The notes under the pieces were generated by a model. That model was not told the DNA's origin and did no database searches. It saw only the letters and a list, made by a program, of their open reading frames with translations. Both the position numbers and the translations under genes were made by a program. A stretch of DNA of 37,736 bases from Candidatus Parvarchaeota archaeon (GTDB taxonomy: Archaea; Nanobdellota; Nanobdellia; Parvarchaeales; Parvarchaeaceae): positions 1 to 37,736 of the forward strand of contig JAMCRO010000009.1 in assembly GCA_023380615.1 (NCBI GenBank), written 5' to 3'. Positions 13,745 to 13,980 of the stretch are shown here, piece after piece. Within the stretch, counting starts at the first letter, position 1, and the number at the start of each line of letters is the position of its first letter.

Positions 13745-13789
13745 TATTTTAACTTCTGTTGCAAATAACTTATATGCTGCATACTAAAA

Positions 13790-13860
13790 GCGCCAATAGT
13801 CTAGCAGCATAACTCTGGCTTCCCAAGCCAGCGACCCGGGTGCGAATCCCGGTTGGCGCA
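13790..13860 (+). tRNA. tRNA-Gly(CCC), structurally atypical
   Basis: Acceptor GCGCCAA/TTGGCGC fully paired; anticodon stem ctggc/gccag with loop TTCCCAA; T-stem ccggg/cccgg but T-loop TGCGAAT; D-stem gtct/taac pairs at only 2 of 4 positions; A at position 18. Confidence 0.88.
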
Positions 13861-13980
13861 TTTTTTAGCGCTTTTTTGCCGTTAAATAGAGCTCAAGACA
13901 AAAATTTTATAATAGATATATTTGTTAATCATATGTCTTTATTATCTAAATATATAACTATCTTGTATCGCCGTTTAATT

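Follow-up and report, generated by a model that had tools for sequence, protein, structure and literature searches.

Some staphylococcal tRNA-Gly isoacceptors that serve the cell-wall glycine bridges carry GUGC in place of GT-psi-C, together with changes of the D-loop GG, and are poor in translation. The escape of the staphylococcal tRNA-Gly from EF-Tu has been ascribed to the base pairs 49-65 and 51-63 (PMC9976931). At the elbow, G18 stacks within the T-loop, touches residue 55 and adjoins the G19-C56 pair, and the literature presents G18 and U or pseudouridine 55 as contacting residues that are conserved or universal (PMC4810234; PMC7912444). Cbf5 is able to make pseudouridine 55 in vitro (PMC7912444).

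The gene analyzed here lies in a window, that is, the whole stretch of DNA that was analyzed, of 37,736 nucleotides, and its host, a DPANN archaeon, is represented by an assembly that measures 645 kb, is 59.6% complete and gave 33 tRNA matches. When the gene is set beside the published description of the staphylococcal non-proteinogenic tRNA-Gly, both are glycine tRNAs with G55, but the archaeal gene keeps G19-C56 and a strong T-stem, and its change recurs on non-glycine tRNAs. With the canonical archaeal elongator tRNA-Gly(CCC) (RF00005) it shares the cloverleaf, the CCC anticodon, A73, an all-GC T-stem, G19/C56 and a T-loop of 7 nt, whereas A18/G55 replace G18/U55 and two D-stem positions are mismatched. 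The same A18/G55 pair, with G19 and C56 kept, was found on tRNAs of DPANN archaea, Patescibacteria and viral arrays, although on different isoacceptors.

The tRNA-Gly(CCC) gene

The gene scored 56.2 bits against the Rfam model RF00005, for a gathering score of 29, and ARAGORN agreed with the call. The earlier note had described, from the letters alone, a tRNA-Gly(CCC) with perfect acceptor, anticodon and T stems, A18, G55 and the T-loop TGCGAAT, and all of these features were confirmed by direct reading, ARAGORN and Rfam, as was a D-stem (gtct/taac) that keeps only two of its four pairs. The positions of the features are collected in Table 1.

Table 1. Features of the tRNA-Gly(CCC) gene and its surroundings, in window coordinates
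Feature	Position	Strand	Basis or comment
TATA-like TTATAT upstream of the gene	13770-13775	+	Weak; promoter role inferred
tRNA-Gly, anticodon CCC, 71 nt, intronless, CCA not encoded, discriminator A73	13790-13860	+	ARAGORN and Rfam RF00005
D-stem 5' strand GTCT (positions 10-13)	13799-13802	+	Direct reading
D-loop AGCAGCA, 7 nt; A18 = 13806, G19 = 13807	13803-13809	+	Direct reading; A18 common to the clade
D-stem 3' strand TAAC; 2/4 standard pairs	13810-13813	+	Direct reading
Anticodon CCC, reads GGG	13822-13824	+	ARAGORN
T-stem 5' strand CCGGG, all G-C with CCCGG 13848-13852, 5/5 pairs	13836-13840	+	Direct reading
T-loop TGCGAAT; G55 = 13842 replacing U/pseudouridine 55, C56 retained	13841-13847	+	Direct reading
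Two T6 runs directly downstream, possible terminator	13861-13877	+	Inferred

Direct reading gave an acceptor stem GCGCCAA/TTGGCGC with all seven pairs, followed by U8 and A9, an anticodon arm CTGGC-TTCCCAA-GCCAG with all five stem pairs, and a variable loop of 4 nt (CGAC). In the D-stem, G10-C25 and U11-A24 are paired, and C12/A23 and U13/U22 are mismatched; the D-arm was absent when the secondary structure of the isolated tRNA was folded. With a D-loop of 7 nt the register is A14 G15 C16 A18 G19 C20 A21, which places A and G at positions 18/55 and G and C at 19/56. The bases of the canonical G18-U55 contact are thus A/G at this elbow, and G19-C56 is present. The tRNA-Ser and the tRNA-Leu of the window are G18/U55, in keeping with the earlier statement that both are normal at the elbow. 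The DNA upstream of the gene is AT-rich in most of the clade members, and GGG accounts for 69 of the 626 glycine codons in the likely genes of the window.

Conservation within the genus and the other glycine isoacceptors

Full copies of tRNA-Gly(CCC) with A18/G55 were found in seven further congeneric species, eight species with the host, at 97-100% identity (100% to the host copy in four congeners and 97-99% in three). In another congener, G009, the gene is truncated at a contig end, and A18 is seen in the remaining 5' half, from which the T-loop is missing. The alignable flanks of these loci, which keep a syntenic order, are only 75-88% identical, as against 97-100% for the gene, which indicated purifying selection on the gene across species. 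A sequencing error at 13811-13841, named in the earlier note as a possible refutation, was excluded together with an assembly artefact by the presence of identical A18/G55 bases in the seven further species.

The change is not a property of the whole genus. The Gly-CCC tRNA has a normal G18/U55 elbow in the more distant G011 and G017, both congeners, and in G028, and it is G18/C55 in G029 and G016; a genus-wide elbow change was rejected on the state of the congeners G011 and G017 and on that of G016 and G029. As G18/U55 or G18/C55 is what the more remote members of the genus and the more remote families show, A18/G55 in Gly-CCC is derived within the genus.

Nor are all of the glycine tRNAs altered. 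Each of the eight clade genomes that were searched has a normal Gly-GCC (the copy of G014 contains an intron), as does the genome to which the window belongs, and Gly-UCC was normal in each of the six genomes, out of nine, in which it was found; the three that gave no Gly-UCC, G000, G003 and G009, are incomplete assemblies. An alteration common to all tRNA-Gly was consequently rejected. Because the GCC and UCC isoacceptors are normal (the latter in the six genomes where it was found), tRNA-Gly(CCC) is redundant for GGG, and poor translation by this tRNA alone would not be lethal wherever UCC exists. Furthermore, tRNAs with a normal elbow also show the C12/A23 mismatch of the D-stem, examples being Arg-GCG in the host genome and the Gly-UCC copies of several congeners, so that the mismatch is neither tied to A18/G55 nor an element of any special design.

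Distribution of A18/G55 in archaea, bacteria and viral contigs

A survey of 140 genomes of the class was performed with patterns that fixed A18, a D-loop of 7 nt and particular stem bases and left position 55 free. The real tRNAs among the matches were 21 A18/G55 and two A18/U55, counts that carry no correction for ancestry. A18/G55 was found on seven Gly-CCC, on Thr-UGU of G017, G004, G019 and G048, on tRNA-Ala of G043, G053, G087 and G108, on Val-CAC of G043 and G053, on Tyr of G048 and on Cys of G075. The Phe of G016 was counted as A18/G55 on loop length only, its D-loop AGCAGGA being ambiguous (G18 G19 if position 20 is missing). Both A18/U55 cases were tRNA-Ala of G068, and the remaining A18-pattern matches were due to chance or spanned introns. 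The G18 plus G55 pattern gave four matches in the 140 genomes, none of which was an ARAGORN tRNA in that register, leaving no real G18/G55 among the tRNAs matched. In G048, A18/G55 is on the single tRNA-Tyr that was found, and it is probably on the sole tRNA-Phe of G016, whose genome is 100% complete. These results indicated that A18/G55 is not a glycine feature, being present also on Thr, Ala, Val, Tyr, Cys and probably Phe tRNAs.

When all 102 tRNAs of three sampled genomes were classified, three were clear A18/G55, 11 were G18/C55 and 87 were G18/U55, with the ambiguous Phe of G016 as the one left; at 3/102 clear cases, A18/G55 is uncommon within a genome. C55 with G18 kept, which was seen on about a tenth of the tRNAs in these three genomes, occurs in the window's own genome on L012 (Thr-GGU), L013 (Asp-GUC), L026 (Ile-GAU) and L029 (Ser-GGA), and on several tRNAs of G016.

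A strict A18/G55 pattern was also run on named genomes, where at least 113 stretches matched, with record titles for all but the last 33. Among the matches listed, ARAGORN confirmed 103 tRNAs: 39 Cys-GCA, 34 Ala, 18 Gly-GCC, 5 Met and single others. By title, again among the matches listed, nearly all of the hosts of the Ala tRNAs were Micrarchaeota and other archaea, and for the Cys and Gly-GCC tRNAs most of the hosts with a title were Patescibacteria, the few exceptions being Clostridia, WOR-3 and untitled bacteria.

In viral contigs, only positions 18 and 55 were varied while the rest of the pattern was held constant, and ARAGORN-confirmed tRNAs were counted. A18/G55 was present on 50 tRNAs (38 distinct) and A18/U55 on two (a single distinct sequence and another that was unassigned), A18/C55 and A18/A55 gave no confirmed tRNA, and G18/G55 gave none in the correct register; G18/U55 was found on at least 110 and G18/C55 on 15. 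Fisher's test of the association between 18 and 55 over the distinct viral sequences gave approximately 1e-34, a value that ignores shared ancestry and for that reason overstates the case. The recurrence of A18/G55 over unrelated isoacceptors and phyla is a stronger argument than this test.

Whole viral arrays carried the change. G55 was present on 27 of 27 tRNAs in L334, 13 of 14 in L330, 34 of 38 in L346 (which, by our reading of its open reading frames, encodes a PhoH-like protein and an HNH protein) and 14 of 17 in L352, and AG replaced GG in nearly all of the D-loops of these arrays. A18/G55 is on all 27 tRNAs of L334 and on nearly every tRNA of the other arrays, compared with one in 33 in the host genome of the window. 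Nevertheless, the change is not general in phage arrays, because three cultured phages with tRNA arrays, RcXuper, RpAliso and phiCbK, have normal elbows with U55.

Readings of the altered elbow

The comparisons show a real gene under strong conservation, and a joint change of positions 18 and 55 both in this gene and in a large number of unrelated tRNAs. Judging by the sequences compared, unrelated lineages acquired the same A18/G55 double change on many occasions. Since half-changed states are nearly absent, A18 and G55 are suggested to restore the 18-55 contact between them. We consider it very probable that the gene encodes a working elongator tRNA-Gly(CCC), which would read GGG alongside tRNA-Gly(UCC) and in which an A18-G55 contact would dock the elbow with G19-C56 kept. 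A compensatory double change would then have rebuilt the 18-55 contact, with A18-G55, presumably a purine-purine pair, in the place of G18-pseudouridine 55. The two bases would touch in the folded RNA, position 55, being G, could not be pseudouridylated, the tRNA would be aminoacylated, and aEF1A and the ribosome would accept it. A18-G55 has the appearance of another functional way to build the elbow rather than of the mark of a broken or non-translational tRNA.

The earlier note had offered, as one of three readings, a specialised glycine tRNA that recalls the staphylococcal cell-wall type. Such a tRNA would work outside translation, its altered elbow serving to avoid the elongation factor, and this we regard as very improbable. 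The G55 of the T-loop does resemble the staphylococcal GUGC as the note described it, and the other glycine isoacceptors of the clade are normal, so that CCC is dispensable for decoding. The proposed check on the isoacceptors gave the expected contrast, with GCC and UCC normal and CCC divergent, but specialisation did not follow from it once the relatives were examined. The elbow is not confined to glycine tRNAs, as tRNAs for many different amino acids and entire viral sets have it, and sets of this sort cannot consist of non-translational tRNA-Gly. G19 and C56 are retained, and instead of weakened determinants at 49-65 and 51-63 the gene has the T-stem CCGGG/CCCGG, identical to that of the ordinary Gly-GCC (L006) of the same genome. 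A decaying gene was the second reading offered, and the mismatches of the D-stem and the redundancy with Gly-UCC would agree with it. Its probability is close to nil, given intact acceptor, anticodon and T stems and 97-100% identity over eight species against 75-88% in the alignable flanks; a pseudogene was rejected on this conservation, which contradicts degeneration as such. The last suggestion, a lineage-specific tRNA with compensating changes, is supported: conservation of A18/G55 in relatives, which the note had asked about, was found in the seven congeners, and the double change proved wider than one lineage, having arisen repeatedly in unrelated ones.

Additionally, relaxed constraint was weighed, under which position 55 would drift among U, C and G in a lineage without Pus10, the archaeal enzyme dedicated to making pseudouridine 55, and A18/G55 would be tolerated without tight coupling. 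Pus10 (TIGR01213) gave no match over the cut-off in 48 relatives, and the weak matches fell inside Cbf5 in the genomes checked; together with C55 on 11 of the 102 tRNAs of the three sampled genomes, this speaks for the reading, and the lineage may have become less strict at position 55 when Pus10 was lost. Drift, however, predicts numerous G18/G55 and A18/U55 tRNAs, of which the former are absent and the latter rare, and it does not cover Patescibacteria and phages. Hence, loss of pseudouridylation at position 55 was judged insufficient as a full explanation, and uncoupled drift is unlikely.

Beyond the working tRNA-Gly(CCC) favored here, a broader proposal can be put forward only tentatively. 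A18-G55 might be a genuine second way to connect the D- and T-loops, one that needs neither Gm18 nor pseudouridine 55. Paired substitutions on individual tRNAs would have produced it many times among DPANN archaea and Patescibacteria, and some phages would have taken it up for their whole tRNA sets, possibly to escape host enzymes that read the elbow. The natural recurrence of A18/G55, up to whole viral sets, would offer a ready-made natural experiment on the function of the elbow contact and of pseudouridine 55, would bear on models of tRNA detection and modification, and would provide a mark distinguishing phage tRNAs from host tRNAs. An earlier description of A18/G55 was not found in the literature searched; most subscription journals lay outside this scope, and older tRNA compilations, for example, may hold one.

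Two further observations were made on these genomes. The tRNA-Thr(UGU) L021 (G000:C28:13775-13846, minus strand), which ARAGORN misses, has the T-loop GCCAGCA, with G54/G58 replacing U54/A58. By alignment it is 99-100% identical in seven further clade species, and it was also matched in G002; no convincing case was found outside the clade in the 140 class genomes. The cbf5 gene L544 (G000:C32:12600-13900, minus strand) contains an insertion of 12 nt, AANNTTGAAGAA, which brings in an in-frame TGA. The insert splits the catalytic Asp codon behind its first base, G[AAGATTGAAGAA]AT, and the protein reads GTL-D-P without it. It was present in 15 and absent in 7 of the 22 genomes of the family that were read (L544 compared with L545 and L549-L568). 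Crenarchaeal cbf5 introns have been described at the same site (PMC2738675). When folded, the insert shows the helices GGGA/UCCC and CUUUA/UGAAG together with a bulge of 3 nt, and it probably represents a 12-nt intron of the splicing-endonuclease type in the mRNA of a DPANN archaeon.
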